Below, piece after piece: positions 34,883-56,766 of a stretch of 64,000 nt of DNA (position 1 is the first letter of the stretch; every line of letters starts with the position of its first letter). A program made the translations under genes and the position numbers. This DNA is from Arthonia radiata (taxonomy: Eukaryota; Ascomycota; Arthoniomycetes; Arthoniales; Arthoniaceae): assembly GCA_002989075.1 (NCBI GenBank), contig PSQN01000015.1:1674001-1738000 (forward strand), written 5' to 3'. The notes below the pieces were generated by a model. The model worked only from the letters and a program-made list of their open reading frames with translations. It had not been told where the DNA came from and searched no databases.

Positions 34883-35184
34883 TGTCACGGGACTATTGTG
34901 TACAAAGTGGCCGATGATTCCATGCCATTCCTGAATACCTACTGGCAATGCTGGTTAGTACAGTGCTCCCTCCAATGTGACAGCCAGCGAGCCAAATGCT
35001 GACCGAGTCGCCACTCAGTGTTTGGATGTGCCGCTAAAGTCTTTTACAAACGCTCCGCAGGAAGATCATGCGCTTCTTGCTGCTCTACTTCCTCTTTCTT
35101 TCGTACCTCGAGTGCCAACGTCGATACCACCATTGTCCGGTCGCCTACTCCTAAATCAATCATCACTAGATACAGGCCATCACC

Positions 35185-35388
35185 ATATGCTCCCACGAAC
35201 GATATAGATGTCCCACCTACAATCGCATAGCGTACGGGCCCACGTGGTTTTGGTGCCGCAAGGCTAGAAAGAGACACTATACCTGTCACGTTGATCTCAA
35301 TACCTATTGGGACAAGGATGAATGCCGATTTGACGATTGCTCGACCAATACTACGAGGGTGGAAGATGTTGATACCATTGGGCCATGA
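35185..35388 (+). pseudogene. Array A copy with lost start codon
   Basis: Reads in one open frame of 67 codons plus stop and aligns throughout with the gene at 34688: CSHERYRCP, YGPTW, CRKAR, then CRFDDC near the end. Where the ATG should be, the sequence is ATA (35185-35187), and the second cysteine of the first C-x2-C pair is Tyr (CPTY). The next ATG in the DNA is out of frame. It is either a recent pseudogene or uses a non-AUG start. Absence of internal stops points to a recent loss. Confidence 0.7.
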
Positions 35389-36127
35389 CTAAGACGATCA
35401 CCGATTTGTTGTCGACAATACGTTCTGACGACGAGCGCCTTTGGACAAAATGTTCAGTAATGGTTTATTCCTCAACTCGCCGAGGCGCCCGAGGTACCCA
35501 AATGCACCAGGATGCTCAGCAGTAGCCCTATGTTCCACTGTTCCACACGGCGCACAGTTTAGCGATGGGCGGCAATGCCAGCATGCCTGCTTACAGTTTC
35601 GCTGCTCTGCACGGCTCGCCAAGGATATTTGCGCAAGGCAACGTTGATAATGAGTTCTCCCTCAACGCTCGTCTGAACTATCGACCTTTTCAAGCGTTCA
35701 CCCTCCGCAACTCGGTATCTCTATCACCAAGCTCTCCTATACAACCGCAACAATCGATGGTCTAGATGGAAGCGAACTACAAGGGACAAGATTTCAACAT
35801 CGACCTCAAGGCCATGAACAAAGCTCGAGCTTGACTGGCATCCTAGTCGGCAGCTACCTGCAGAGCGTGACGCCCATGCTTGCGCTAGGTCTCGAGACGA
35901 TGTGCTCAAGACGCTGCATCTCTAATAAATACGCGTCTCAAATTTACGACGTGAAAACTCCAGTGGAGCTTGTGTAGCCTAGATCCCACTGCCCTCACCT
36001 TCTCTTGATCCTTACCTTTATCTTGCTTGCTTCTCCCCCACCATTATCTCCAAGCCTTTTCGCTCTCCAACCTGTCCTCCAAAATTTCGTCACGCAACTC
36101 AGACACCCGAATCAGACAAAGTATCAC
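35389..36127. other. Spacer in array A
   Basis: About 740 bp. A 25-codon frame at about 35898 starts MCSRRC but lacks the rest of the family pattern. No supported gene. Confidence 0.45.
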
Positions 36128-36241
36128 CATCATCAGTGACAGTCACCAACCCATCATCAGAAACAATCATCAACTCATCATCAGTGACAGTCACCAACCC
36201 ATCATCAGAAACAATCATCAACTCATCATCAGACACAGTCA
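36128..36241. repeat. 48 bp tandem repeat in the 5' leader of an array A gene
   Basis: Two full copies and part of a third of a 48-base unit, itself made of two related 24-base halves that each begin CATCATCAG. It ends about 50 bases before the ATG at 36294, so it probably lies in the transcribed leader. Confidence 0.85.
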
Positions 36242-36293
36242 AAAAGCCACCATCATCACCAACAAACAATTCATCACCATACCCGCATCGATC

Positions 36294-36524
36294 ATGTGTC
36301 TCTACGTTCAATTCCAGTGCACTACCTGCCGTCGCATCACCTGCGGACCGCACACCCTCAAGTGTCACGAAGCCTTGAGAACTGGCATGGGATGCGTCGT
36401 CAGTTTAAAGACGTGGACCGAGGTTTCAGGCTGGGGATGTCCTGGGGCGAACTGTCCGACGAATACGTCTGGCGCTGGGGCGGGCGGTGTTGATGGTGGT
36501 GTCGTGAATGGTAGCTACGCTTGA
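36294..36524 (+). CDS. Array A cysteine-rich mini-protein 2
   Basis: 76 aa starting MCLYVQFQCTTC. It keeps CRRIT and GP found in copy 1, then LKCHEAL, GMGC, and a final C-x4-C (GWGCPGANCP). The last 20 residues are Gly/Val/Asn-rich. An extra cysteine (RRITCGP) is present. No signal peptide. A 48 bp tandem repeat lies directly upstream. Confidence 0.72.
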   Translation: MCLYVQFQCTTCRRITCGPHTLKCHEALRTGMGCVVSLKTWTEVSGWGCPGANCPTNTSGAGAGGVDGGVVNGSYA

Positions 36525-37087
36525 TCAAGCTCGCGAGGTGGCAATGTTCACAGGATGTTGTGGTCAGAGCGAGCATCGGCCAGGCAATGTTGCAAGCAAG
36601 TATGTGTGTTGCGTTCGAACAACAATGGCAAATGACGTTTTTTGTTTCCCCAGGCAATCTCCGCCGCTTCCCAAGACTGCATCTGCGATTTCAAAAGGCC
36701 CGATTACGACTCGCAGTTCGTAAAGAGGAAGGTACACGCGCCAACGCGAGAGGTAAACGCGAACGCTGCGTGGCGCCGTTGCTTTCACCTTCCACCTGCT
36801 CCCTCGCGCTACTTCAAACGGCTTTCTTAGCGTGGTTGGACGTAGACATATAACGACCTGCATCTCTCGTGTTGTTCCCTCTTCATCATTCTCAACATTC
36901 GCAACTTCGACTGCATCAAGCAACTTCACCGTAACTGCGACTTACCCAACTCACACTGACCCAGACTGCGGCTTTCACAAAACCCAAGCAACTAACCGCT
37001 GGTGTCTACGACGATCCCTTTACATCAACACTTCCGACCTCCAATACATCGTTAATATCAATAACAACCCCACCATCCCACACCAAA

Positions 37088-37312
37088 ATGTGCAAACTCA
37101 TCCAAGCCCGCTGCGGTTCCTGCTGGCACCCTTCCAACAACGAGCGCTGGGTGTACTGCAAGCACTCCCACAAGACTGGATATAAATGCGAAGGAGTTGA
37201 ACCCGAGACGAAGTGGGATCCAGAAGAGGCCTTCTGCCAGTACGAGTACTGCAAGAAGAACGACCCCAAGGGCGGAAAGGGGTATACGGAGCCAAAGTTG
37301 AGCGACAAATGA
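37088..37312 (+). CDS. Array A cysteine-rich mini-protein 3
   Basis: 74 aa starting MCKLIQARCGSCW. Cysteines at C2, C9 and C12, then WVYC, GYKC, and final C-x4-C (FCQYEYC). The C-terminal tail is Lys/Gly/Pro-rich. It shares with copy 2 the I/V-Q before the second cysteine and an aromatic residue before the fourth. Same strand and spacing (600-800 bp) as its neighbours. Confidence 0.72.
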   Translation: MCKLIQARCGSCWHPSNNERWVYCKHSHKTGYKCEGVEPETKWDPEEAFCQYEYCKKNDPKGGKGYTEPKLSDK

Positions 37313-37975
37313 TGGTGATAGTCGAGCATGAAATCTGAGGGCGGCTGTAGTAGTCGGGCGGCATTGTAGTGCAACGATTTGGGAGGTCCAAGAGTGGCTC
37401 TTCTTGGATGCCGTGGAACTGATGGTGGTGGTGGAGATTTGACAGCGTATATCAACATCATTGTATTAGCTGAGTGAATGCGATCGTCACAGCGTTTCCG
37501 CTTTCTCTCTGCACACATATCAGCTCCCGAACAATCCTTAGCCATCGCGTAATAATGCCTAGTCAGTCATAGAAATGAGCCTGAACGACACTCATTTGCG
37601 CTTTCTCGCCACGCACCATCCATTCGCATCTCCCTCCAACATACAAAACACCATGCCCTGACATCTTCCAAAGCAAACGGGCGAGCCAATCTTCCAACGA
37701 CGTCTCGCCACTTCCAACCCTACATACCCTTCGCTCCTACCTCCGCAACTCCAAGATCCTCGCAATTTCCTTCGACAACTCGCGACTCCTTCTGACAACT
37801 CCAGAATCCTCGCACTTCCTCCGCCAATTCACACTATCTCCCACCTTCTCGCTCTCCACCAACACCACTCAACCACCACCCAACTACCAAACCCACCCCC
37901 AACAACACCCTCTTGGACCCAGACATCATCTCTCGACACCTTCCCCCAATCAGAACTCACAAACTCCAAAGCAGA

Positions 37976-38152
37976 ATGTGCAACTACATCCAAATCGTCT
38001 GCGCCGACTGCAACCACATCATCCTCGGGCCGCTGTTCTCCGAGTGCGACAAAGCGCGCGACTCGCACCGCGTGTGTGTCGTCAAGCTTGAGGTCACGAG
38101 GGACTCTGTTGCGTGTACGCGGGGTGAGTGTCCGTCGAATCGGAAGGAGTAG
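37976..38152 (+). CDS. Array A cysteine-rich mini-protein 4
   Basis: 58 aa starting MCNYIQIVCADC. The pattern continues with GPLFSEC, HRVC and final C-x4-C (ACTRGECP). This is the shortest array A member and ends a few residues after the last cysteine, which sets the minimal domain at about 55 residues. No signal peptide or membrane segment. Confidence 0.7.
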   Translation: MCNYIQIVCADCNHIILGPLFSECDKARDSHRVCVVKLEVTRDSVACTRGECPSNRKE

Positions 38153-38600
38153 GGACTGGTGTTCAATTCCTGGTGGAGAATGGTTGTGTGGTGGAGTGAT
38201 GTGGTCGGTATTGAGAGCGCGATGGATGCTGAAGACGAGAGGAGTCGGTACGGAGAGTAGCCGAAACGAGTGTTAATGTCTGCTCTGCAATGGCCGTTGT
38301 CGAGTGAATAGCATTCGCCACGCGGCGTTTGACTTTGTTTAGCGTTCGTTGCGACCGCTTATGAAAGACCTGCGCACCTGCTATGCAACCTTCTCCACGC
38401 GTATCTGCCTGTCTTCTTCTTGCACCATATCGAACATCATCGAGCCTAGGTCAATACCCAAAAGCTTCCGGAAACTTACACCATCCATTAACCCTAGCAC
38501 CATCAAGCTCTCGAATACTTACACAACACATCCTTTTACCCACTATCACATTGACCCATCGACCCCAGACACTAGTCTGGACCTCGTCAACAATCAACCT

Positions 38601-38642
38601 CTACAACAATTAGCCTCTACAACAATTAGCCTCTACGACAAT
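38601..38642. repeat. 16 bp tandem repeat before an array A start codon
   Basis: Two full copies and a partial third of CTACAACAATTAGCCT, ending directly at the ATG at 38644. Probably in the mRNA leader. Confidence 0.75.
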
Positions 38643-38643
38643 A

Positions 38644-38829
38644 ATGTGCGAGATGCTCCGAGTCGTCTGCGGCACCTGTACCTACGTGATCGAACCAACG
38701 TGGACCGTCACGTGCGAGGCAGGCGAGAAGAGTGGCTGGATCTGTAGGCACACGCGATTGGAAGTGCTTCATCGAGATGATCTATGTCCCAGTTCTAGGT
38801 GCTCGCTAAAAGAGGGTGGTGCTCGCTGA
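38644..38829 (+). CDS. Array A cysteine-rich mini-protein 5
   Basis: 61 aa starting MCEMLRVVCGTC. The pattern continues with WTVTC, GWIC and final C-x4-C (DLCPSSRC). Its last codons lie in a 20 bp tandem repeat that supplies the stop codon, so copy number of the repeat changes the C-terminus. Confidence 0.7.
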   Translation: MCEMLRVVCGTCTYVIEPTWTVTCEAGEKSGWICRHTRLEVLHRDDLCPSSRCSLKEGGAR

Positions 38830-45140: not shown

Positions 45141-45278
45141 TCACGGGGGGAACCACGGTCCACAATTGGTGCAGTCAGTTATGTATGACGTTCGCTCGCC
45201 AGAACATGTGTCGGTCGTGTTGCAGACGCTGATCGGCGTTTCGGTCTTGCAATCGTGGCAATATCGATAGTTGCACAT
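45141..45278 (-). CDS. Array B cysteine-rich mini-protein 1
   Basis: 45 aa, below the usual length cut-off for frame calling. Starts MCNYRYCHDCK. The full array B pattern is present: C2-x4-C7-x2-C10, then SVC, DTC, and terminal C-x2-C (DCTNCG). No signal peptide. This is the last copy of the array in the direction of transcription. Function unknown. Paired C-x2-C at both ends is what zinc-ribbon or knuckle domains show, but metal binding is inferred. Confidence 0.72.
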   Translation of the reverse strand: MCNYRYCHDCKTETPISVCNTTDTCSGERTSYITDCTNCGPWFPP

Positions 45279-45677
45279 GTTCAAGTTGGATGAATTCGAT
45301 TTTTTATTGATTGCAAGTTAGGGTACTCGATGACTGGCCCAGGCAGAAGAGGTGGATGTTACGAACAGCAATAATTATGGCAAGCATGGGCTAGAATTAG
45401 CACTCTTGGATTTGATGCCCAAATGCTACTTTTGTCAGACTAAAAACTATGCTCGCCCTGCGAAGGCAAGCTCCAATGACAATGGGACCTACATCACGCT
45501 CACTTGGCGGCCCTCGACCCGACGACTTCATATCACTGGAGATGTGATATCAGTATCATTGCATGCGACGAACTATCGAGTCGAAGCGACTCAGTTGGCG
45601 CACACCGCTGCGGTGGGTCTCTACACTCTAAAGATCGGTCAACTTCCGCTTAGTGGTGTATCGCGCCAAAGGCTGGC

Positions 45678-45806
45678 TTACTTCGCAGGAGGGCAGAAGC
45701 CGCACTTGGAAAGCGGGTATGTCCTCAAGCCCTCACAGTCCGGTTTGAGACACGGATATGACTCAGGAACCTTCTTGCAGTTGTCGCACTTGTACTGCCA
45801 ACACAT
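45678..45806 (-). CDS. Array B cysteine-rich mini-protein 2
   Basis: 42 aa starting MCWQYKCDNCKK. All seven array B cysteines are present and the protein ends four residues after the last one (CGFCPPAK), so it defines the minimal domain. A TATAAAG box and a GCAAACAC element lie 165-190 bases upstream (45967-45993). Confidence 0.78.
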   Translation of the reverse strand: MCWQYKCDNCKKVPESYPCLKPDCEGLRTYPLSKCGFCPPAK

Positions 45807-45966
45807 CTTGGGAGAATTTTCGGCCGTTGCTGATGTTTTTGTTCGAATGCGGCTTTTGGCAGTGCGAATGCAGAGATTTGATCACCTGTTGAAGCTGTTG
45901 AAGCTCTCGTGCGTAGTCGCGGACAAGTGGTGAATGAAATTGGACAGAGAAAGAGGCCGAGATAAC

Positions 45967-45993
45967 CTTTATAAGAGCGACCAACGTGTTTGC
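45967..45993 (-). promoter_or_regulatory. Promoter module: GCAAACAC plus TATAAAG
   Basis: On the minus strand GCAAACAC (45993-45986) is followed after 12 bases by TATAAAG (45973-45967), upstream of the array B gene at 45806. Similar modules precede several other array B genes. Confidence 0.55.
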
Positions 45994-46188
45994 GTTGGCG
46001 AACGTCACGATCAAGCGGCCTCAAGCGGCTATAAATTCGAGCAAACGCTGTGACGCCATCCACGACTACGCCGAACGCCTTCAGCACTACCCATGCGCGC
46101 TTCATACTAGCCCTCGCCGCGCAAGACTTCAATTGCGCATCAGTCGGCCATTTCCAGCGACCCATCTCGCAAGCGAGTACATGGCAAC

Positions 46189-46368
46189 TTACCGATGAGA
46201 GTGAGGAGCCTGACGGTGCCGCGATGTCAAGGCCTTGATCTCACATCGGCAGCAAGATTCGACCTGCCACATGTTGACGTTGGGGTGGCTTGGGCAGATC
46301 CTCCCGCTGACACACCTCTCGGTTCGCTCGAGGAACTCGCAGCCCCTGCACGTAAAGTACCAGCACAT
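46189..46368 (-). CDS. Array B cysteine-rich mini-protein 3
   Basis: 59 aa starting MCWYFTCRGCEF. Cysteines continue as ERC, ICP and a final SCCRC, which has one extra Cys. The C-terminal 14 residues are basic and His-rich. An imperfect GCAAACG-type element lies about 200 bases upstream. Confidence 0.75.
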   Translation of the reverse strand: MCWYFTCRGCEFLERTERCVSGRICPSHPNVNMWQVESCCRCEIKALTSRHRQAPHSHR

Positions 46369-47208
46369 CTCGCTGACGACCTTGAAATCGAGGCGAATGA
46401 AGGATGTGGTGAATGACTGCGGGCAAGTCAGGTGGATGATTGAACACTGTACGCTAATGGCAGAGCCGAGTCTCAAGCAAGATCATCGAAAGAAGCAAGG
46501 AAGATGACGAGGCAGAGCAGTCAATTGTGAATCGCGTCTGTGACTTTGCTTAGATACGCCTCAAGCAAACGGTCCGTTTGTCGCAGACTTGCTCAACCAT
46601 TTGCCACATCGAAGCACGCGCTGAAGGGGCCTCTGGGCCGAAAACCAGGGTAAGGATCGACTATGGGGTATGTTGATTGGGCGCTGTATTGGAGTCTCCT
46701 TTGAAAGGTCGCAGGGAGCTACTTAAGGCCTATTGACAAGCATGGGCAACAGAGCATGCTTAGTGGAGCATAGATGATCACCAGACATTGAAGGCTGAGA
46801 AATACAAGCCTACGTCGAGGTTTGCGTCCTGCCTAGTCACACATGTTGACGGCTACACTAGAAGTGCTGAGGCGACTGGCAAAAGATGTTTGAGGACCTG
46901 GTTATCATTGCAAATGAAATTGCTTCAAAGTGAAACGCGACATATTGACTCTCGGCTGGCAAGACCGTGTCTCATTGTCTCAGTGTCTGCCACAGCGGCG
47001 CTACGAATGTACCCATGGCAAGAGCGAACCCGAGTTCCCACTGAGGCTGACCTTTCCAGCGAAAACCTTATCGCCCGGGCAATTGCTCATCCGTACAAGA
47101 AGGTATCTATTCTCCAGATCGAGGAGCTTCTGAGGTCGCCTTAGCCCCTGCAAGCAAGCATTGTCAGTACATTGAAGGAAAAAGTCGAGGTGCGCTAAGA
47201 CATGGGAC

Positions 47209-47337
47209 TCACACGCCTGTCGGACAGTATTGACATTGGCTCACATGCGTCTCGTCACGCGAGCAGGTCCGTGGGCTAGGGCAGTCCCAAGTTTTATCAG
47301 ATCTGCGGCAAGGGTCGCAGACGGTCCATTTGCACAT
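47209..47337 (-). CDS. Array B cysteine-rich mini-protein 4
   Basis: 42 aa starting MCKWTVCDPCRR, then WDC, RTC and final C-x2-C (QCQYCP). Complete pattern and minimal length. The promoter module at 47504-47528 lies about 170 bases upstream, and the inverted-repeat element 47674-48025 lies just beyond it. Confidence 0.78.
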   Translation of the reverse strand: MCKWTVCDPCRRSDKTWDCPSPRTCSRDETHVSQCQYCPTGV

Positions 47338-47503
47338 GATGGATGCAGTGTCGTGTCGTGCTGTGAAAGTATCACGTTCGAAGCGGAGTGAAGTACCCTT
47401 TGCGGATGATGTCTTTGCTGTGTGGAGAATGTTTGGATTCTGGTTGAGGAGCTGCAGCTGTTTTTCAAGAAGCGAAGTGAAGAAAAGGCTCCACGATACG
47501 AAA

Positions 47504-47528
47504 GTTTTATAACCTGGCGCGCGTTTGT
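47504..47528 (-). promoter_or_regulatory. Promoter module: ACAAACGC plus TTATAAAAC
   Basis: On the minus strand ACAAACGC (47528-47521) precedes TTATAAAAC (47512-47504) by 8 bases, upstream of the array B gene at 47337. Confidence 0.55.
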
Positions 47529-47673
47529 TGTGTACAACGAAAGCGAGCGACTGCAAATCGGGGCGTTGCCTGTGAGGTGTTTGCGGCTTCCGTGCCAACG
47601 ATAACCAGTCGTGTCTGCAAGCAGGGGCGGAGGCGTGCTCTTGACAGTCGGAGACTCCATGAAGATAAGAGCC

Positions 47674-48025
47674 ACGGTTAGGCTCAGGACACCACCATTT
47701 CGTACCACTATTTCGAAATGGTGGTGTCCCCAAGAATTAACCTCTAGGGGGTTCAACCCCTAATTGTCAGCATATTAACCCCCCTGGGCACCCGCGTTTC
47801 CCCACCCCCGTCCTTCACCTACATCTGGGTCCTCCCGCAGGGACTCCCTCCCTTTGGGGAGTCCCTCTCGCGGGCCCCTCCCAGGTTTGGCTCGACCCGC
47901 GTTTCAGACGTTACAATAGCCCTCCAGGAGAAGGGAAAACGTTCTGTGTTTGCGGCAGATTATGGTTGAGGATACCACCATTTCGAAATGGTGGTACGAA
48001 ATGGTGGTGTTCTAAGCCTAACCGT
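47674..48025. mobile_element. MITE-like inverted-repeat element
   Basis: A 352 bp element bounded by terminal inverted repeats of about 58 bases with only a few mismatches. Both ends read ACGGTTAGGCT inward, then ACACCACCATTTCGTACCAC and an ATTTCGAAATGGTGGT palindrome. The interior is C-rich and has no coding frame, so it would depend on a transposase from elsewhere. Flanks show AGAGCC on the left and AAAGCC on the right, but a clean target-site duplication is not certain. It sits between two array B genes. Confidence 0.8.
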
Positions 48026-48386
48026 AAAAGCCATGATGCATGCGCGGTCAAGAGCGATCATGAGACTTGTGGCATGAAGAGGGTCAGATGATATTGGTCC
48101 TTGCTAGCTATCAGAAGGCTACAGCGTCACCAGCATTTCCATCACAGGGGCGTGAGCTGGCGATCGCTCTTCGTGTTCGATTTCTCCACTGGCTGTCCGA
48201 CTGCCGGTTCCATCGTCGGTCCTTTTCGCGTACGTACAGATTGAATCAAGATCCACATCAGCCCTGTGATCTTTTACATAAGGGCAACTCTGGCGCTAGG
48301 ACAATCAGCAAGCCCAACCAAATTGACACCAGAGGGTGTTGTAAACTCACCTTAATCTGCATTGTTCTTGCGCCGTATGAAGAACA

Positions 48387-48557
48387 TCATTTACGGCGTC
48401 TGGGAGATGGTGACCGAGATGGAGATGGGCTTGGGGAGCGGGGGCACGAGTGACACTTGTCCACCATATTGACCCTGGTGAAGTTGCATTTACTGGCATC
48501 GCACCTATCGGTGCGGCGCTCATTGCCGCAGCGCCTGCACTGAAATTTTTCGCACAT
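48387..48557 (-). CDS. Array B cysteine-rich mini-protein 5, RS/SP tail
   Basis: 56 aa starting MCEKFQCRRCGN, then DRC, SKC and final C-x2-C (DKCHSCPR). The tail is SPSPSPSRSPSPRRRK, an Arg/Ser/Pro repeat like phosphorylated RS/SP tracts. It ends before any CaaX box. The same tail type is seen at 49601, followed there by more sequence. A CAAACGC element and a TATAAG box lie at 48723-48744. Confidence 0.75.
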   Translation of the reverse strand: MCEKFQCRRCGNERRTDRCDASKCNFTRVNMVDKCHSCPRSPSPSPSRSPSPRRRK

Positions 48558-48722
48558 CGCAGCGAAGATGAGGTGATCTTGTTTTCGATGCTTTGATTGC
48601 TAAGCAGTAAGGTGTTCTAGTATGATGAGCTGGAGAGGTATGATTGATATGATATTGGTTGGGGATGGTGTCGTAGATGGGTGGAGTTCGTAAAGCAAGA
48701 AGGAGAAGCGGTGGAGCAAGAT

Positions 48723-48744
48723 CTTATAGAAAAACTGCGTTTGA
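48723..48744 (-). promoter_or_regulatory. Promoter module: TCAAACGC plus TATAAG
   Basis: On the minus strand TCAAACGC (48744-48737) precedes TATAAG (48728-48723) by 8 bases, upstream of the array B gene at 48557. Confidence 0.5.
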
Positions 48745-49057
48745 TCGGCTCCAAACACAGGAGATTTCTGCAGACGACCATCTATCGCCGTTTGCATGTA
48801 TGTCAAGCCACTGTCGAGCGGAAGAGGTTGGTGCATGCCGGACTTGTCGAACAGGAAGCCTGAAGCCCGGGCAAAGAATGAGTGAGAAAGAGCAGAAGGC
48901 TAATACCGACGAAGACTATAACAGAATTCCAGGCTGAACAGCGAGGGTGAATGTGAAGAGCAAGGGAAGCTACGCCCTTCAAACATCTAACGTGGAGGCA
49001 GACCTGGCTTCAAGGACGCATTGAGAGACCGATACCCGGTGCCAATCTGCTATGCCA

Positions 49058-49171
49058 TCATCCGTACTTTGGTGGTAGGAGCCCCTTGACGACACGACTG
49101 CCGTTCTGATTTGTGTCGCACTCGAGCGGCCGGCGATGACCACAGCCATCGCATTGCATTGACTGCCATAT
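49058..49171 (-). pseudogene. Degenerate array B fragment
   Basis: A 37-codon frame that begins ATA-TGG where the family has ATG-TGT or ATG-TGC. It then reads QCDGCGHRRPLEC, matching the first C-x2-C and the next cysteine of array B. The rest of the pattern is missing before the stop. An internal ATG just before QCDGC could start a 33 aa product, but loss of the second half argues for decay. Confidence 0.4.
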
Positions 49172-49600
49172 GGTCTTAGGACCGATTGTTGTCGCTTCTC
49201 TCAAAATATTGACGCGGATTGCGGTCGATGTTGGAGTAGGTTAATAGGGTGACAGGTCGGGGATGGTAGTAGAGAAGGGACTCGCGGTGCCTGAAACTTC
49301 AAACGCAACAGGCGCGCTCCAGAGGATGCTGTTTGGTACCGCCCGCCGATGCGAGTCATCTTGCTGTCCCTTCGAACACAGGCAAAGGCGTCAGGCATGG
49401 TAAGTACATGGTAGGTCCGACCTCGAACACATAGTGAAGACACGATCAGCATGACTAATAACACAGAATATAGGCGGGTGAAAAGTCTCCAGTGGGCCTC
49501 GTTGAGTTGCGACTCAACGCTGCTTCATTCGCTAGCACAACCGTGAGAGCACTCTCACATCATGACACGTGGTCCGTATCAATGGCCACCCAAGTCCAAG

Positions 49601-49882
49601 TCAGCTACGTTGACGTGGAACGTCTGCCAAAACTTGTGACCTACCAGACATCACATTACAACAGCCTTTATCTTGAGGGCTCGGATACCGGCGGCGATGG
49701 CGACGACGACGATGGTGTCGCGGAGAAGGGGAGCGATATTGAGAAGGGGACGGAGAGCGAAGAGGGCACCGGGGGCATCTATCCACCATTCTCACGACTG
49801 TGTGGTTGCAATCAACTCCATTTTCGCAGCTCCCGGTCCAGAACTCGTGATGATTGAGCCTGCACTGCGTCTTTTCGCACAT
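49601..49882 (-). CDS. Array B cysteine-rich mini-protein 6, extended past a buried CaaX-like box
   Basis: 93 aa starting MCEKTQCRLNHHEF, so the second cysteine of the first pair is lost. GSC, VDC and C-x2-C (RCPRCP) follow, then a tail rich in SPSP and poly-Arg/His (RHHRRRRHRRRY). The sequence GCCNVM, equivalent to the C-terminal GCCQIM and GCCRIM of copies 51552 and 52198, is present here, but the reading frame runs on for 17 residues (SGRSQV and onward), so the box is not terminal. This looks like loss of the ancestral stop. Confidence 0.68.
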   Translation of the reverse strand: MCEKTQCRLNHHEFWTGSCENGVDCNHTVVRMVDRCPRCPLRSPSPSQYRSPSPRHHRRRRHRRRYPSPQDKGCCNVMSGRSQVLADVPRQRS

Positions 49883-50255
49883 GATTGCAGCTCTGGAAAC
49901 TGTGAGTTCAGATAGTCTTCGGAGATGCTGTCAAAAGTACTGGTAGGTGGAGCGCCCACGATCGTGGCAGCTTCAGGATACAGTGCGCAAGACTACTGAG
50001 TGAGTTGCTAAAGCACTTAACAAGAAGGCGGAGAAGCTTCAGCAGAAGTCGTCATTGGCAGCGCGTTTGATCGTCCTCAAACGCACCGAGAAAGTTCTGG
50101 CTTCCATCGTCTAGCGCGAAAGAGCGAGGAAGGAGAATTCACAGCTCTGACTGCCGAAGCTAACCCCATCTCACTACGAGCGGCTGTATCCATTAAACGA
50201 ACATGTTGCGGCCCAGCATCGCGATCATCGCGACCCAGTAAGAGGTTCACATGAC

Positions 50256-50546
50256 CTATGTCTTAGTCAATACACGGATGGTCGTGGCAAGACCCAATGC
50301 GGCGCTACACACAGAACACATAAGTTTTATTTGGTTGCTGCGATTCGGAGTACGGCGTAGACCCTCCGCGGCACCGCGAGGATGACTTAGAAGCGGAGAT
50401 GGAGACGACGCCGCTGATGAGTCGCTTCGACACTTGCGGCACTGATCGATATTTCGTACGCTGAACCTTCCGTTGCAAGTTCGCCAATTTCTGCACCTAT
50501 GGAGACGACTCATGTGGCCACATTTGCAAAGTTTTCTCTTACACAT
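50256..50546 (-). CDS. Array B cysteine-rich mini-protein 7, altered C-terminus
   Basis: 96 aa starting MCKRKLCKCGHMSRLHRC, then RTC and C-x2-C (QCRKCR), so the cysteine head is recognisable with CKC in place of C-x2-C. The tail SAASSPSPLLSHPRG resembles the Ser/Pro tails of its neighbours but lacks the poly-Arg run and CaaX box. The last 40 residues may be out of the original frame. Confidence 0.6.
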   Translation of the reverse strand: MCKRKLCKCGHMSRLHRCRNWRTCNGRFSVRNIDQCRKCRSDSSAASSPSPLLSHPRGAAEGLRRTPNRSNQIKLMCSVCSAALGLATTIRVLTKT

Positions 50547-50988
50547 ACTTTCGGGTGGGCGGCCTAAAGACTCGGCTGGCCTGAAGAGCTGCGTTGGGAG
50601 CGTCGAAAGATTTCGGATTGGCACGGGCGTCCTATATACGGTTGAAGTCGAAAGCTCAGGTCGCAGAACGTGCTGAAGAGAGATGATGAGGATTTGGAAG
50701 GTGCAAAGAGGGACATATAACGGAAGGCGCGATTGACAAGCTGAACTCCAAAGCAAACATTAAGGCTTGGCGAAAGCCTTGTTTAAGGCTGGAGGTATCA
50801 CACAGTTGTGAGGCAGCAAATGGTGCACCTCACAGCTTATACTCCACGTAAGGCTTCCGAACGACTGGCCTCAAATAACGCTGACTGCCCTTTTAGGACA
50901 ACTTTGCGCAAGCGGCTGGCTTTACGCTATTCGCTACAGCTACGTATACAAGTCTTCGTCGTACCAGGCAGCTGACTCAGAACCTTGT

Positions 50989-51251
50989 TCACATCATCGA
51001 ACAATATACTCGTGCTACGACACGACGTCTCTGAATAGGACTACGACGATGTCTACCATCGCTCCCATGACTTCGGTGATCGTTCCGCTGCGCACGACTG
51101 GCAGCGATGATTTTGGCTGAGCTCGGCATCCGTGGAATGCATTGTACCCACCATTCACATGAACCCGGGCGTATCCGTTGCATCTTCCGTATCTCGGATG
51201 CTTTCGAAGACGGCTTCTGTAACCGCGATCGCAGAGCTCGCGTTCGCACAT
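50989..51251 (-). pseudogene. Frameshifted array B copy
   Basis: The first frame, from ATG 51251, reads MCERELCDRGYRSRLRK, then GRCNGYAR, closely matching the intact gene at 51552. After that, similarity continues in a second frame: CIPRMP, a basic stretch with RRSPIQRRR, and a terminal CSMM directly before a stop at 50989. One indel near codon 33 therefore separates the cysteine head from its CaaX-type tail. The first frame ends at 51015 in unrelated sequence. A shorter protein may still be made. Confidence 0.65.
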
Positions 51252-51551
51252 GATGTTGCGCTTGTGGTGTTGTCCAAAGGCATGACCGGTCCCCTGCAAG
51301 GCGAGTAATGAGATGAGGAGTCTAACACATAGCTGTTGCTAGGGAGGGTGTGCCGACAGAGGATACACTCTCGCACTCCGGCTTGGAGGATCGACGCTGG
51401 GCGGCGTTGATGGTAGGTGAGGCAGTCCGAGCGTTTTCACAAGTGTTGCGAAGAATGGATGCCGCAGAAGTTGTTGCAGTTGACAGAGGAAGCAAGAAAC
51501 TAGCCAGCGTTGACCCGTTTGAGGGAGAGTATTGTGTTTGCTGTGCAGATG

Positions 51552-51779
51552 TCACATAATCTGACAACATCCTCGCTCTTCGGTATGGCGCCTCTTAGCA
51601 GCTCTACGACGATGGCCATGGCCGCTTTTGCTTGCATCGGTTGGTGACCTGGGTGCTCTTGGTATGCATCGCAGACAGGTTTCTACACGAGCTAACTCGT
51701 ATCCTTCGCAACGGCCTTGGTTACTACTTCTGTAATAACGGCTTTTGTGACCACGAACACACTTTAAGCGCACACACAT
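51552..51779 (-). CDS. Array B mini-protein 8 with CaaX box (CQIM)
   Basis: 75 aa starting MCVRLKCVRGHKSR. Later cysteines are GRC and C-x2-C (TCLRCIP); the second cysteine of the first pair is lost. The tail is basic (GHGHRRRAAKRRHTEER) and the protein ends GCCQIM at the stop codon. The last four residues, CQIM, fit C-a-a-X with Met at X, the choice of farnesyltransferase. The Cys before it could be palmitoylated, and the polybasic stretch matches membrane-targeting regions of Ras-type proteins. Prenylation is inferred from sequence only. Confidence 0.75.
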   Translation of the reverse strand: MCVRLKCVRGHKSRYYRSSNQGRCEGYELARVETCLRCIPRAPRSPTDASKSGHGHRRRAAKRRHTEERGCCQIM

Positions 51780-52197
51780 GGTGTCACGCTGCTAGGATTC
51801 CTGAAAGGTAGGGTGTTGGACTTCGGCGACGGAGATGGGATAGGCGGTCTCGAAAGTCGTCGTGAGAGAGAACGTTGCGACAGGGAATGCTCTCGAGTCA
51901 TCGCCTTGAAAGATTAGCCCCGGTTGCGCGCCTTGCGGAGGTCAAGGTTGCCCGCGGATGTCGAAGAGCGGAAGCCCATGAGCGTAAGGTAATGGCGAGT
52001 ACGCGGCAACGTGCCAAAGGTTGTGAAAGGGAGGGTTCTGGACGCTGGTGAAGATAGGCAATGTGAGAGTTTCACAGACAGCCGCTGCTACTGAAAACAA
52101 CAGTAGGATGAAGAATCTGACAGAGGTCGAAGCTGACCCGTTTGCAGGAGGTCGTCGCGTTTGCTAGCTCAAACGATGGCACGCCATCCTACAGCTT

Positions 52198-52449
52198 TCA
52201 CATAATCCGACAACATCCAGGTTCCGGCTGGCGCGAACGATGACGGCGGCGGCGGCGACGGCGGGGCGGACGTATCCCAAAGGTTGCGGCCTCTGGCGGC
52301 GAAGGAGCCCGAGGCCCTCGAGGCGCCGGACAGTTGCCGCAATGGTTCACATGACGTACCGTGTCGTGCCAGTTGGGTTCGTCTCTGCAACGTCGAAGTA
52401 ATGTCTCGGTATGACACCCGTCGCCGCGGCAGAACTGGTATCTGCACAT
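52198..52449 (-). CDS. Array B mini-protein 9 with CaaX box (CRIM)
   Basis: 83 aa starting MCRYQFCRGDGCH (first pair widened to C-x4-C), then RRC and C-x2-C (HCGNCP). It has a Pro/Ser-rich linker, a poly-Arg/His run (PPRRRRRRRHRSR) and a terminal GCCRIM. Final CRIM is CaaX-like with Met at X. The DNA around the box, GGATGTTGTCGGATTATGTGA, differs by two bases from that of the copy at 51552. A GCAAACGC element lies 200 bases upstream (52650-52657). Confidence 0.75.
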   Translation of the reverse strand: MCRYQFCRGDGCHTETLLRRCRDEPNWHDTVRHVNHCGNCPAPRGPRAPSPPEAATFGIRPPRRRRRRRHRSRQPEPGCCRIM

Positions 52450-53075
52450 TTTGACCGCTGGTATAGAGACCTGTGACGTCTTGAAACAGATGCCACTAAC
52501 AGCTATGCGTGAAGGTTGTAGCTCCTGAGTCCCGTCAGGTTGGCAAGCTAATACACGAGGAAGGTATAATGCAGAGCATACACTGAAGAACTTTCGAGTT
52601 GACGGCGATCGAAAAGCACAAGTAACCAACGGACTACTACATGGGCATGGCGTTTGCTGAGGCAAGCATTAGGTGTCAAGTGCCGCACTCCAGACTCGAT
52701 TGTTGTTTGCGTATGCGCCACCTTGAAGCAGTGGGTGCTTTTAGAGAACAAATATTGCCTGCCTCTCAGGCTATCATACCGCAATCGCTATTGAGCGTCA
52801 ACCGCACGAATGTCCATTACATGATATGTCCGGATCGCATTGCCTTCGGGGACTGTTACCACAGGCATGCGACTCTGACTCGAAGGCAAGAAGCACGCAG
52901 GCGTTGAGTTAGTGACTGAAAAGCAGCAGATGGGTAAGGAGCGACATTGCTAGCCAGGGTCTTGTTCCAGCGATGGCGCATTACAACTACTAGCGCAAAG
53001 TTCAGCATGCGTGAGGAAGTCCGCTCGAAATCCGACCGTCAACCTCACAGCCGAGCATATTCCCGGCACTATCTC

Positions 53076-53243
53076 TCACTTCTTCGAAGACTCACGCTGC
53101 GCCAGCTCCTTGGCCCAACGGCATCTCTCACAATCCTCAATCTCGCTCAGCTTCTGATTTGGGCATTTCTGGCCGGCTCGTCCTTTGCAACGCTCCTTGA
53201 TGTCAACGTCATCGCACGACTTGCAGAGGGTTCCGGTGCACGT
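53076..53243 (-). pseudogene. Array B copy with ACG in place of ATG
   Basis: A full-length frame: TCTGTLCKSCDD, then ERC, QKC and C-x2-C (DCERCRW), ending ESSKK at a stop, with every array B cysteine kept. The start position holds ACG (53243-53241). A predicted 52 bp leader intron (53253-53304, GTAAGC to ACTAG, with CTGAT branch) and a promoter module (53433-53465) are intact. Intact cysteines suggest either very recent start loss or initiation at ACG, which occurs in some fungal genes. Confidence 0.68.
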
Positions 53244-53432
53244 GTCCGCTTGCTAGTATTTAATAATCAGCAGAATATGCAGTAGGGTCAGAGGCATTGC
53301 TTACTATGCTTTGATGTATTTATGAAGGCTGCGTTTTTGGGCTGTGACCGGTTTTGATGATTTAAAGACTTCAACGCTAGTTTGAAGATGAGAGTGGTGG
53401 AAGAATGAAGAAGAACAAGAAAGCACGACGGA

Positions 53433-53465
53433 CTTTTATAGCACGATCAGCGATTCAGCGTTTGC
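53433..53465 (-). promoter_or_regulatory. Promoter module: GCAAACGC plus TATAAAAG
   Basis: On the minus strand GCAAACGC (53465-53458) precedes TATAAAAG (53440-53433) by 17 bases, about 200 bases upstream of the ACG-start array B copy. Confidence 0.65.
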
Positions 53466-53513
53466 AGGCTACATGCACTAGCGTCCTCCCGCTAACTGCC
53501 TGACCAACATTTC

Positions 53514-53678
53514 TCACTTCTTCGGAGATCCGGGCGGCATCTTCTTGCTCCAGCGGCACCGAGAGCAATCGCTCACGTTGGTGAGGCTCGGCTTGGTGCA
53601 TGTGGAGCCGTGTGCGTCTTTACATGGGGAGGTGATGTCGATGTTGTCGCATCCCCTGCAAAGTGTTCCGATGCACAT
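53514..53678 (-). CDS. Array B cysteine-rich mini-protein 10
   Basis: 54 aa starting MCIGTLCRGCDN, then SPC, STC and C-x2-C (DCSRCRW), ending PPGSPKK. It is close to the copies at 53076, 53978 and 54469 and forms a recent sub-cluster with them. A 46 bp leader intron (53702-53747) is predicted from GTCAGT, a CTACTGAC branch site and AATAG. GCAAACGC lies at 53924-53931. Confidence 0.8.
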   Translation of the reverse strand: MCIGTLCRGCDNIDITSPCKDAHGSTCTKPSLTNVSDCSRCRWSKKMPPGSPKK

Positions 53679-53977
53679 CTTGATGGGTTTTCCGATGGCT
53701 TCTATTTTGTCAGTAGACAGTATAGTATACAGGTGCTTGCTACTGACCTTGATAAATGTGAATGAGGTGTCCAACGATGATCGGTTCGCTTGGTAATAGG
53801 TGAGGCGTTCAAGTTTGCCTTTCCGATGAGTGTTGGATTTTTGATAGAGGATTCAGAATCGGTGGTGAAGAAAGGAAGAAAGAAGTGCAAGCTGAGGGCA
53901 CAACTAATCTATGCAGCAAGATGGCGTTTGCAGCTACGTTTACTAGCTATCTCTCCGATCGACTCCAACGACGCCCC

Positions 53978-54145
53978 TCACTTCCTCGGAGACCCTGACG
54001 GCGACGGTTCCTTGGCCGAGCGACACTTAGAGCAATCGTCGATATCCGTGAGATTCGCGTTCGGGCATCTCCCGCATAAGAAGTATTTGCAAAAGTAAGA
54101 GACATCCTTGTCGCCGCATTTTCGGCACTCTGTTCCGGTGCACAT
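53978..54145 (-). CDS. Array B cysteine-rich mini-protein 11
   Basis: 55 aa starting MCTGTECRKCGD, then YFC, CGRC (one extra Cys) and C-x2-C (DCSKCRS), ending PSPSGSPRK. The segment PNANLTDIDDC is shared almost exactly with the copy at 54469. GCAAACGC at 54373-54380 lies about 230 bases upstream. Confidence 0.8.
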   Translation of the reverse strand: MCTGTECRKCGDKDVSYFCKYFLCGRCPNANLTDIDDCSKCRSAKEPSPSGSPRK

Positions 54146-54468
54146 CGTGATAGTCTTTCTTCGGCTAAATGTTATCAATTTCGCGAACGTTGGCTTGCCG
54201 GCTTTAGCGAATGTGGGTTAAGAAACAGTGATTGTTGCGCTTGATGAAGGGTGGGAAGTTCGAGTGTGTGTTTCTGGCAGGCTTCGGGATGCTGAGGAGT
54301 CGGGGGTTGGTGGTGAAGAAGAAGCACGAACAGCCGGCTCAGGACGCAGAAGGTATTCAAGTAGTAGTATTAGCGTTTGCTAAATGCATCTACTAATGTC
54401 TTCGCGTTCGATGCGAACCGCGGCTCTCACTCTTTCACGCCGATTTCTGAGCCGTCGAACTACGTCGC

Positions 54469-54624
54469 TCACTTGTCCGGCGGCGGTCTCTTGGCCGCAC
54501 GGCATTTATTGCAGTCGTTGATATCGGTGAGAGACGCGTTTGGGCAATTGCCGCCGACGTAGTGCTCACACTTGCTGTCGAGCTCAGTGTCGCCACATCC
54601 CTTGCAGTGTGTTCCTTGGCACAT
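54469..54624 (-). CDS. Array B cysteine-rich mini-protein 12
   Basis: 51 aa starting MCQGTHCKGCGD, then SKC, GNC and C-x2-C (DCNKCRA), ending RPPPDK. It is too short for the usual frame cut-off. A predicted 47 bp leader intron (54646-54692) uses the GTCAGT donor also seen upstream of the 53514 gene. The TATATAAG promoter module is at 54843-54867. Confidence 0.8.
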   Translation of the reverse strand: MCQGTHCKGCGDTELDSKCEHYVGGNCPNASLTDINDCNKCRAAKRPPPDK

Positions 54625-54842
54625 GATGAGGATTTGCTGGGTGGTCTGTCGATGATCAGTGGGTAGGCATTGAAGTGAGATGTATTACTGACATTTGCGG
54701 GTGGTTCGGTTGATAATAGATATGGTCACACGCAATGTCGGGTTGAGTGTGTAGTGTGTACCTGTGACAAGTTTTCGGGAGTGTGTAGTTCGTTGGTGCA
54801 GGAGCAATATAGGAAAGTACAAGAATGAGGAAGCGCGAGAGA

Positions 54843-54867
54843 CTTATATATGCAACGGCGCGTTTGT
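54843..54867 (-). promoter_or_regulatory. Promoter module: ACAAACGC plus TATATAAG
   Basis: On the minus strand ACAAACGC (54867-54860) precedes TATATAAG (54850-54843) by 9 bases, about 220 bases upstream of the array B gene at 54624. Confidence 0.6.
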
Positions 54868-54906
54868 AGGCTTCGTTTACCGGTGTGTTGCCTTCGTGCT
54901 CGTAGA

Positions 54907-55039
54907 TTCCATCGGGCGCTGAGAGGATGCGTTTGCAGTCGGTAATCGGTTCGATGCGGTCTCTATCGACGGGATTCAGACAGTGAAGCATGCGTACCGA
55001 GAATAGGCGGCATTGTCCACAGAATGTTGCCTTGAAGGA
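54907..55039 (-). pseudogene. Decayed array B copy
   Basis: A frame reads SFKATFCGQCRLF, then MLHC, then PITDCKR, aligning with cysteines 2-4 and 6 of array B. The initial MC, the fifth cysteine and the last cysteine are gone. It runs without a stop into unrelated sequence. Listed as a remnant. Confidence 0.35.
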
Positions 55040-55246
55040 GGATGCGGGACGGCTGAAGGGTGAATCGCCTGATATGACTAGATATCCACGGCAGCCGTCC
55101 ACGATAGCAAGCATAAACCTGACCGCCTTCACAGTATCCTCTCACATGTCTCCCCTGTAATCTTCTCCGCCTTAAAGTCACAGCGCCAGTGTATGCCTTT
55201 CATACTCAGCCATCTTACCAGCTTACCCCAAAGACTCAACCTCATC

Positions 55247-55398
55247 TCAATGTTTCTTCATATACTCCGGACCCACCGGGTAACAGCTGCTGCAGGTGTC
55301 GACATTTGACATGGTCGTCTTTGTACACTTGATGGGTCTTTGCACTCGGATGTGAACTCGGAGTAATGACAACGCGTGCAGACCCATTTGGCGCACAT
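55247..55398 (-). pseudogene. Frameshifted array B copy
   Basis: From ATG 55398 the frame reads MCAKWVCTRCHYSEFTSECK, the expected first four cysteines, then drifts to an early TGA at 55260-55258. The second half of the family pattern (KCTKTT, then DTCSSC and a Lys/His end) lies in another frame that stops at 55247. A single indel near codon 22 explains this. A 46 aa product remains possible. Confidence 0.7.
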
Positions 55399-55928
55399 GT
55401 TGGATCAGGACAGGACGGCTTTCGGCGTGATCTGGGGTGGCTGTGGTTGTGACGCAGGGTGATGCGTCGAAGTTGCTCCGGTGGATTTTGTTGTAGTTGA
55501 GCACTGACGAGTAGGTGATGAGTCTGTGGCGATGTGGGGTTCTGAGGTCGACAGTAAAGCATGACGATCAAGATCCAGGATCACGGAGCGTGTACGTGGA
55601 AGAGGCATTCTTGCGATAGTACCGTTTGCTTCGGGCCTCACTTGGTCTTTAAAGCAACCTCAGGGCACGACAAAGGCCAAATCGGCCGGTAATTATATGT
55701 CAGCAAAATCTCGCAAACAACATCGAAAGACCAGCAAATGACGAAAGAAGCTGCGAAATTTTTCAGAAAGTTTTCCAAGTGCTTGTGGCGGACAAAGGCC
55801 ATCCACCGTCCATTTGACTGTTCCACGAAGGCAGGCGCGTGCCGCACAACCTTCCCATCTCTAGCGTTGCTTTTCTATATTCTTTTACCCCTCCCCTACT
55901 GGACGTCGCAAAGCATCATCTACCATCT

Positions 55929-56147
55929 TCAATACCTCCCACGACCGAGCGGTATCCCGGCCGCACGAGGCACCGCCTCCTCCTCGGCCTGGTCCTCCGC
56001 AGTCTTCGGCGCAAGCTTGAACGAACACTTCTCGCACTTCTCGACCTGCGTCGCGATCGTGCGCGTGCACTTGCCGACGTTCATGGCGGGGCACTGCATG
56101 GTGACGATGTGGTCGTGGCAGCGCGCGCAGATGCGTGTGTTGCACAT
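55929..56147 (-). CDS. Array B cysteine-rich mini-protein 13
   Basis: 72 aa starting MCNTRICARCHD, then TMQC, GKC and C-x2-C (KCEKCSF). The tail has an acidic part (AEDQAEEE) and then RAAGIPLGRGRY, without a CaaX box. It is closest to the copy at 56581 (shared MCNTxICxRC). Confidence 0.78.
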   Translation of the reverse strand: MCNTRICARCHDHIVTMQCPAMNVGKCTRTIATQVEKCEKCSFKLAPKTAEDQAEEEAVPRAAGIPLGRGRY

Positions 56148-56580
56148 TTGGAGGGTGATTGGTGGTGTTTGTCCTGGTGGGGTTGTGGCGGTTATTTCTT
56201 TTGATGTGAGTTGTGTGAGGGTGACTGGTACTTAGTGATGCTTTTGTGACTTGAGTGAGTCGGTGGGACTGGGTTGGTTGAGGATGCGCTCGTGACGGTT
56301 GGTTGTGGGTTTGGTTTGTGGGTTTTGGGTTGTTGAAGAGTTCGAATTGTGAGATTTTGTACAGGACGAAGACTTGGAAGACCGAGAGATCCAGAGCTTT
56401 TATTCTGGCCACGCATGGACTGCCTCTTGCCTCGCAGTATCCCGATTTGGACGCTTGGCGCTTCGAGGTGTGGCATCTCTCCTCCAGTAGATGCGCGTCA
56501 AATCTGTGAAGCATTCGCCAAGCCGCAAACATCTCTTACTCTGCGAGTTGATCAAAGTGCAGCCCGAACAACAAGAATCG

Positions 56581-56766
56581 CTACAGCCGACTGCGTATCG
56601 GCTTGCGTATCGGCTTACGCATCGGCTTGCGTATCAGTTGTACACCATGGACGCAGGCATCGACCTGCTTCACGCGTGATACTCTGCAAAGGCCGAAATA
56701 TGAAGCTAGGCACTGCTCTCTGATAGTATTGATGCCGCAGCGGGTGCATATCTGGGTGTTGCACAT
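56581..56766 (-). CDS. Array B cysteine-rich mini-protein 14, repeat tail
   Basis: 61 aa starting MCNTQICTRCGI, then EQC, GLC and DAC; the last cysteine of the terminal pair is missing (ACVHG). A 12 bp DNA repeat encodes a basic tail of RKPM and RKPI units. It is the first copy of the array in transcription order. Confidence 0.7.
   Translation of the reverse strand: MCNTQICTRCGINTIREQCLASYFGLCRVSRVKQVDACVHGVQLIRKPMRKPIRKPIRSRL
56591..56636. repeat. 12 bp tandem repeat coding a basic tail
   Basis: Nearly four units of a 12-base repeat built on CGGCTTGCGTAT. Read on the minus strand in one frame it gives RKPI/RKPM units at the C-terminus of the array B gene 56581-56766. Confidence 0.8.

Follow-up and report, generated by a model that had tools for sequence, protein, structure and literature searches.

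Several described systems come close, each in part, to the locus analysed here. The RING and IBR zinc modules begin and end with a C-x2-C pair and have single cysteines in between, and the treble-clef and zinc-ribbon mini-domains combine a hairpin at the knuckle with a C-x2-C that opens a helix. Short hypothetical proteins that begin with Met-Cys and contain CGH are common in filamentous ascomycetes. A terminal CaaX tag usually serves as a membrane anchor; yeast Ras2, for instance, ends in GCCIIS. Finally, fungal small secreted cysteine-rich proteins (SSCPs, effectors) are comparable in size, cysteine content, clustering and divergence, and clustered secreted examples are described for Trichoderma (PMC4812632).

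Here, we analysed a 64,000-nucleotide stretch of the Arthonia radiata genome, referred to in the following as the window, and confirm the earlier observation that one small-protein family lies on its minus strand from 45141 to 56766 (array B). The features of the window are listed below; cysteines are numbered by their position in the family frame, and held-out E values come from profiles built without the respective copy.

34688..38829, plus strand: array A, five proteins that start with MC and have seven Cys in common, at 34688, 36294, 37088, 37976 and 38644
45141..45278, minus strand: copy 1, 45 aa, 7 Cys, intact; held-out E 1.1e-5
45678..45806, minus strand: copy 2, 42 aa, 7 Cys, intact; held-out E 3e-5
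46189..46368, minus strand: copy 3, 59 aa, 7 frame Cys and one extra; held-out E 7.1e-5
47209..47337, minus strand: copy 4, 42 aa, 7 Cys, intact, strict motif; weakest match, held-out E 0.055
47674..48025, no strand assigned: MITE-like insertion with 60-base inverted ends, in one of the wide gaps, between copies 4 and 5
48387..48557, minus strand: copy 5, 56 aa, 7 Cys, basic SP/R-rich tail; held-out E 1.1e-11
49601..49882, minus strand: copy 6, 93 aa, lacks C10, adjoining His; held-out E 2.2e-8
50256..50546, minus strand: copy 7, 96 aa, first knuckle a C-x-C-G-H variant, long tail; held-out E 6.1e-5
50989..51251, minus strand: copy 8, eroded, MC frame 51015-51251; E 0.0018
51552..51779, minus strand: copy 9, 75 aa, lacks C10 and C19, GH at the knuckle; held-out E 1.6e-4
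51552..51572, minus strand: 21-base block coding for the CaaX end of copy 9 (GCCQIM*), 20 of 21 bases in common with copy 10 (52198-52218)
52198..52449, minus strand: copy 10, 83 aa, lacks C25, polybasic tail, terminus GCCRIM*; held-out E 2.8e-5
53076..53240, minus strand: copy 11, 7 Cys retained, no ATG at the expected place; held-out E 3.4e-12
53514..53678, minus strand: copy 12, 54 aa, 7 Cys, tail PGSPKK*; held-out E 1e-12
53978..54145, minus strand: copy 13, 55 aa, 7 frame Cys and one extra, tail SPSGSPRK*; held-out E 7.1e-13
54469..54624, minus strand: copy 14, 51 aa, 7 Cys; held-out E 1.1e-13
55247..55398, minus strand: copy 15, frameshifted, domain halves in two frames (E 1.4e-4 and 9.3e-4), left out of the profile training set
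55929..56147, minus strand: copy 16, 72 aa, 7 Cys, acidic stretch in the tail; held-out E 7.3e-9
56581..56766, minus strand: copy 17, 61 aa, lacks the last Cys, basic tail; held-out E 2.4e-5

The 17 copies of array B, all on the minus strand and all within this interval, divide into 14 open Met-Cys frames and three others, of which one lacks its start, one is frameshifted and one is eroded; their spacing is 438-1325 bp (mean 718). The tandem minus-strand arrangement of the original prediction stands, while its count of about 18 genes or remnants comes down to 17. Its length range of 42-96 aa is exactly that of the MC-starting open frames, a size at which, as it had pointed out, genes are easily missed.

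The family is defined by a seven-cysteine frame. Across 16 aligned frames (15 from array B and one relative from another contig), the cysteine is present in 16 at C2, 16 at C7, 14 at C10, 15 at C19, 15 at C25, 16 at C36 and 15 at C39; the final C-x2-C, expected to be usual, is found in 14 of the 15 array B frames. The strict motif MC-x4-C-x2-C-x7..10-C-x4..8-C-x9..15-C-x2-C occurs nine times in the window, every time inside array B, whereas 100 shuffles of the window that preserved its dinucleotides yielded none. With the copy in question left out of the profile, 14 of the 15 array B frames are still recovered at E<=1.6e-4. Copy 4 (47337) reaches only 0.055 and the best frame outside 45000-57000 over the 15 runs reaches 0.042, so the membership of copy 4 rests mainly on motif and position. 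Between the cysteines, the copies have diverged as strongly as had been claimed, with a mean pairwise identity outside Cys of 14.7% over 15 frames (start Met counted).

Differences at the Cys codons fall mainly on third positions (0.07/0.018/0.383 for the first, second and third position, versus 0.675/0.62/0.697 in other codons). Omega was fitted over six grid values, with kappa 2 and a fixed tree (IQ-TREE). Rather than lying near 1 throughout, it fits the whole domain best at the lower end of the grid, 0.2 (16 sequences, 46 codons; lnL -2196.5 versus -2245.9 at 1.0; refitting the tree at 1.0 gives -2237.2). Outside Cys, the best value is 0.4 over 16 sequences and 39 codons (lnL -1915.1 versus -1925.2 at 1.0) and 0.6 for the five closest sequences (-597.8 versus -599.2), where it is not clearly below 1. 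These data show that the array B copies are related, encode protein and evolve under purifying selection, which is strongest at the cysteines. The suggested tandem coding family is thereby upheld, by a motif confined to the array, a protein-like Cys-codon pattern and a purifying omega. The diversifying selection proposed with it is not borne out: omega outside Cys is about 0.4-0.6, with no sign of positive selection, and near-saturated synonymous sites (mean pS 0.71 versus pN 0.65 outside Cys) limit what such a test can show.

Sixteen MC-starting copies carry A at -3 in 13 cases (P 3.5e-5 against local composition) and a purine there in 15 (P 1e-4). Codon usage does not clearly single out the coding frame, with a mean score of -0.047 in frame versus -0.079, -0.118 and -0.091 in the other frames. 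The 40-mers upstream of the starts are on average only about 30% identical. A non-coding repeat was rejected on the low DNA similarity outside the frames and the protein-type Cys codon pattern, and RIP-driven decay on a TpA/ApT ratio of 0.66 in array B and of 0.62 and 0.67 in the flanks, with no dinucleotide shift. Direct repeats comprise nine families of 25-63 bases.

None of 14 array B members matches Pfam and none of eight matches NCBIfam at the curated cut-offs, in agreement with the earlier statement that no named family of this layout is known. The window has no Rfam match at gathering scores, and a literature search of partial coverage, where other wording may be in use, returned no description of the family. 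Its sub-threshold matches include several zinc modules, among them weak zinc-ribbon-type matches (PRK14890, L40e and phage zinc-ribbon models), as well as others that are not zinc modules (DUF5816, NttA, PRK05978). Like treble-clef and zinc-ribbon mini-domains, the array B proteins may have a hairpin at the knuckle and a helix that opens at a C-x2-C, as predicted for copy 13; unlike them, they are free-standing, begin with Met-Cys, occur in tandem and have no significant sequence or fold match. The Met-Cys start is shared with the CGH-containing ascomycete proteins, and copy 7 has CKCGH.

In copies 6 and 9, C10 is absent and a His lies beside its place, which points to zinc, since zinc ligands can be exchanged in this way and disulphides cannot. 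Judging from such sequence features, the array B proteins probably bind zinc. The AF2 model of copy 13, our first structure query (mean pLDDT 71.7), places C7-x2-C10 between strands and begins a helix at residue 39, within C38-x2-C41; the second model, of copy 1, is of low quality (pLDDT 65.7) and has no helices. The predicted treble-clef-like order of elements is thus present in the former and absent in the latter, both being metal-free models. A structure-database search with the fold models gave no significant match. Residue 2 is invariably Cys, so cleavage of the initiator Met would expose it as the N-terminal residue, with an amine that could act as an eighth metal ligand. A role as a Cys N-degron, i.e. 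oxygen sensing via the N-terminal Cys, is unsupported; with introns unmodelled, PF07847 (PCO/ADO thiol dioxygenase) has no match in the window's own genome, nor in any of 14 control genomes.

The tails vary by subgroup: some are short, others are basic and rich in SP, and a third kind is polybasic and closes with a CaaX box. Among the 14 open MC frames, only copies 9, whose tail is basic, and 10 have a CaaX terminus; they resemble lipidated C-termini of the Ras2 type in ending GCCQIM* or GCCRIM* after a basic stretch, but their head is not a GTPase and their lipidation is putative. Copy 6 has a tail of the SP/R type seen in copy 5 and a CaaX-like GCCNVM, but its frame continues beyond it, and the DNA of copy 8 encodes a YCSMM* terminus at 50989 in another frame than the MC frame. 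Ends of the form C-x-[ILVM]-[MSQAC] occur in four of 378 window ORFs of at least 40 aa, three of them in neighbouring array B copies (one outside the MC frame). The CaaX blocks of copies 9 and 10 agree in 20 of 21 bases, versus heads that are 12% identical outside Cys; a pattern search for the block gave these two matches (one for the reversed pattern), and allowing three mismatches brought up no further one in the genome. Both copies are also among those lacking some frame Cys, and copy 9 has a low GC3 (0.39), so the CaaX copies are possibly decaying. The block may have spread through one recent tail copying rather than through selection.

With moderate confidence, we regard array B as a birth-and-death family of intracellular mini-proteins, in which a head of about 40 residues and seven Cys, most likely held by zinc, is joined to a variable tail. 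The head would be a zinc-stabilised treble-clef-like mini-fold, with the C7-x2-C10 knuckle in a hairpin and C36-x2-C39 at a helix start; the loops between the cysteines would form a tolerant or partner-specific surface. The tails might then send heads of one type to separate destinations: CaaX copies would be prenylated and reach membranes, and copies with basic SP tails would go to the nucleus or bind nucleic acids. The likeliest role would be that of small intracellular binding or adaptor modules. A more specific scheme, in which one duplicated zinc scaffold with a nearly unconstrained surface acquired short, SP-basic or Ras-like CaaX tails copied between neighbours and yielded membrane and nuclear adaptors, is unlikely.

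Decay could instead account for most of the copies: one or two functional genes might be surrounded by pseudogenes at various stages, in line with the three frameshifted, eroded or start-less copies, four others without one or two frame Cys, the weak codon usage and the MITE-like element inside the array. This is improbable, as nine copies retain the strict seven-Cys motif despite 14.7% identity outside Cys (15 frames), a divergence that neutral decay would not have reached with the Cys codons and the frames still intact, and no RIP-like dinucleotide shift is seen. Loops that accept nearly any residue while Cys codons are retained would suit metallothionein-like buffers, whose cysteines store or detoxify metal irrespective of the intervening residues and whose dosage tandem copies would increase. 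We consider such buffers quite improbable, given that seven Cys, single or as C-x2-C pairs, follow one order across 42-45 aa, that basic or CaaX tails are particular to subgroups, and that non-Cys codons are under mild constraint over 16 sequences. Instead of the dense CxC/CC of metallothioneins, the frames, read by eye, have C-x4-C-x2-C, single Cys and C-x2-C, with CC or CxC within the head only in copies 3 and 7.

That the proteins are effector-like, i.e. secreted non-classically or directed at a host without a signal peptide, would fit small, Cys-rich, tandem and far-diverged genes with intact beside broken copies. Simple hydropathy, as distinct from a trained predictor, finds nothing like a signal peptide in any of 14 proteins, as originally stated; their highest 11-residue value is 1.31, versus 2.51 at the start of an amylase in the same window. 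This sets them apart from SSCPs, as do the C-x2-C frame, the Cys-to-His changes and the CaaX ends of some copies, the last two indicating a reducing cytosolic setting; the distance of some 517 kb between the array and the end of its contig counts weakly in the same direction, and effectors are again distinctly improbable. Very improbable, lastly, are degenerate RING or IBR-like half-domains, i.e. modules of the ubiquitin-ligase type. RNF4 is the best PDB-sequence profile match (E 0.0079 for the chain), copy 14 resembles zf-C3HC4_2 (E 0.013) and the contig C2 relative resembles IBR (E 0.15), but the two RNF4 stretches singly give E 1 and 2.6, every Pfam match is under cut-off, and all 42 PDB fold matches are insignificant, with no RING domain among them. 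For zf-C3HC4_2, the best score is 15.7 bits (cut-off 27), with one of 14 members matching at E 0.1; for IBR, the relative scores 12.6 bits (cut-off 24.3), with none of the 14 array B members at E 0.1. Moreover, the array B proteins have seven Cys in a different spacing rather than the eight C3HC4 ligands, measure 42-96 aa and contain no other domain.

If expressed, the birth-and-death family would constitute an unnamed set of intracellular proteins (42-96 aa) that standard gene calling tends to drop, in which little except the metal-type Cys frame is constant. It would provide minimal zinc scaffolds as a natural library and a case on which to test how localisation tails are exchanged in tandem arrays. 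It also cautions that fungal genes can be small, Cys-rich and tandemly arranged without encoding secreted effectors.

Across 15 array B frames, identity falls with distance (Spearman -0.21, permutation P 0.026), i.e. neighbouring copies are more alike than distant ones, as expected from tandem duplication. Besides the CaaX tails, two further observations go beyond the original prediction, namely an intact relative and look-alike arrays. The relative lies on contig C2 of the window's own genome, to which the family search was confined. It has 57 aa, its ASPKK* tail resembles GSPKK* in copy 12, and a profile built without it matches it at E 5e-8. Array A, which also includes a start-less copy at 35185-35355, and array C on contig 5 are similar in plan to array B and may be related to it. 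In an hhalign comparison of arrays A, B and C, the score was reached by 2 of 100 shuffles of non-Cys columns for B-C, 3 of 100 for C-A and 52 of 100 for B-A. Genome-wide, the start pattern has 91 matches versus 27 for a reversed control; eight of the 91 are one dispersed repeat, several of the 91 carry an in-frame stop, and the other hits were followed by ORF listing at a subset of places. Counting the three arrays together with the contig-14 pair and the contig-2 single would give a total of about 34 copies, possibly more.

The window covers 64 kb of the 2.25-Mb contig C12, in a genome of 33.5 Mb and 16 contigs. Array B, the set of small cysteine-frame genes studied here (45141-56766), has frames with matches to eIF4E and DnaJ-X as its neighbours at one end and a frame with a match to squalene synthase at the other. 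The original prediction of a tandem array of about 18 genes holds insofar as one small-protein family is repeated here on the minus strand; the count is 17 copies (numbered by rising window coordinate), spaced at 438 to 1325 bp. These comprise 14 open frames starting with Met-Cys, one open frame with no start codon where one would be expected, one frameshifted copy and one eroded copy. Between copies 4 and 5 lies a MITE-like element of 352 bp (47674-48025) with 60-base inverted ends that are 92% complementary; the element is matched in part at 14 further genomic sites.

The copies are kin. A strict seven-cysteine motif matches nine of them, nothing else in the window and none of 100 dinucleotide shuffles, and leave-one-out profiles recovered the held-out copy in 14 of 15 cases, at E values of 1.1e-13 to 1.6e-4. 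Because copy 4 (47209-47337) reached an E value of only 0.055 when held out, a level that the best non-array frame over all runs also attained (0.042), its membership rests mainly on the cysteine motif and its position. Array neighbours are more similar to each other than distant copies are (Spearman -0.21, permutation P 0.026).

In the seven cysteine columns, codon positions 1, 2 and 3 differ in 7%, 1.8% and 38% of comparisons, whereas the corresponding values for non-cysteine columns are 67.5%, 62% and 69.7%, in agreement with the expectation that the cysteine frame is kept while the residues between diverge. Of the 16 copies that start with MC, 15 have a purine at -3 from the ATG, which is A in 13 of them, despite upstream DNA that is just 30% alike. 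Six omega values were tried for the domain, and the lowest, 0.2, fitted best. From the cysteine-codon pattern, the ATG context and omega, we therefore conclude that the family is protein-coding, with a hard cysteine frame and nearly free loops; on the other side, codon usage did not convincingly separate the array-B frame from other frames. Diversifying selection, which had also been proposed, did not find support: positive selection is not shown, and the best omega for non-cysteine codons was 0.4 with 16 sequences and 0.6 with the five closest, the latter not clearly different from 1 (lnL -597.8 at 0.6, -599.2 at 1.0).

The head, a cysteine domain of about 40 residues, follows the plan C2-x4-C7-x2-C10-x8-C19, then C25 and C36-x2-C39 in copy 1 and closely related copies, and positions from C25 on shift by a few residues among copies. 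Copies 6 and 9 have lost C10, and copy 7 has C-x-C-G-H there; because a histidine adjoins the place of the lost cysteine in copies 6 and 9, and in view of the copy 7 motif, metal binding is favoured over a disulphide. The AlphaFold2 model of copy 13, built with 14 array members (pLDDT 71.7), predicts strands 3-7 and 13-15 about the first knuckle, a helix at 17-22, a strand at 31-35 and a helix at 39-45; that of copy 1 (pLDDT 65.7) has three strands and no helix. Since Foldseek returned no significant fold match in the PDB (best E 1.1) or among viral models (best E 0.46), and all profile matches, several of them to zinc modules, were sub-threshold, we infer a treble-clef-like head only from the order of these elements and the places of the cysteines.

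The tails, i.e. the C-terminal remainders, vary from one subgroup of copies to another. Copies 12 and 13 end in GSPKK and GSPRK, and one relative outside the array has a similar end, ASPKK:

L042:5098-5271 (contig C2), minus strand: lone dispersed relative, intact, 57 aa, with a tail resembling the ends of copies 12 and 13; E 5e-8 by a profile built without it.

Copies 5 and 6 have an SP/R-rich tail in common. In copies 9 and 10, basic stretches are followed by GCCQIM and GCCRIM, respectively, directly before the stop; copy 6 contains GCCNVM, past which its frame continues, and in the eroded copy 8 YCSMM and a stop close another frame over the same DNA. CaaX-like ends occur in 4 of 378 window ORFs of at least 40 aa, three of them within array B. 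In copies 9 and 10 the 21-base GCC[QR]IM-stop block is the same but for one base, and it has no third match genome-wide at up to three mismatches. As the heads of these two copies have only 12% in common outside the cysteines, either the tail was copied recently or it is strongly constrained.

Array-B proteins are most likely intracellular mini-scaffolds, putatively held by zinc, that would act as binding or adaptor modules, with the tail, which may be lipidated where it ends in a CaaX box, setting their location and with copies duplicated and lost in tandem. Consistent with the original prediction, signal-like segments are absent. Rival readings take the proteins to be metal buffers, products of unconventional secretion, RING-like modules or, for the most part, relics. 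As kinds, neither tandem birth-and-death families nor zinc mini-domains are new; to our knowledge, the free-standing Met-Cys head with varied CaaX or SP tails is an undescribed variant. No named family had been foreseen, and indeed neither Pfam (14 array members) nor NCBIfam (eight) gave a model at cut-off, and the literature as far as it was accessible to us did not yield a description.

Genome-wide, the start-anchored motif M-C-x4-C-x2-C has 91 matches, against 27 for the reversed control. Eleven fall in array B, eight in a contig-5 array (1196618 to 1204240), two lie adjacent on contig 14 and eight belong to what looks like one dispersed repeat; several others carry an in-frame stop. These loci, and the look-alike array A in the window, are:

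Window 34688-38829, plus strand: array A, a set of five proteins that start MC and have seven cysteines in common, plus one start-less copy; plan beginning MC-x6-C-x2-C; three of the five open members were searched against Pfam and had no match at E 1.
L039:5469-9432 and L040:498-3893 (C5:1196468-1204393), seven plus, one minus: contig-5 array, eight MC-x4-C-x2-C proteins of 59-86 aa.
L041:4719-5532 (contig C14): two adjacent cysteine-rich MC proteins, 40% alike, with one weak RING-type match far below cut-off.

The seven-cysteine plans of array A and the contig-5 array resemble that of array B with different spacing, and some contig-5 members miss one or two of the seven cysteines. Beyond the cysteine columns, sequence comparison is suggestive of kinship of the contig-5 array to B (2 of 100 shuffles reach the score) and to A (3 of 100), but not of B to A (52 of 100). 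It would thus far be premature to file the three arrays as one family. A possible ninth contig-5 relative is located at C5:1199448-1199615.

The putative dispersed repeat comprises eight 30-base matches whose sequences are the same but for a few bases (C2:1553362, C5:1050317, C9:815525, C9:1482760, C10:553043, C10:2090680, C14:1596408 and C15:33430), and apparently has no kinship with array B. Contig C13 (L080:507-641, minus strand) encodes an MC protein of 44 aa that carries the motifs GCGxH and RCTCP; we take it to be a small protein of wide conservation, probably outside the array-B family.
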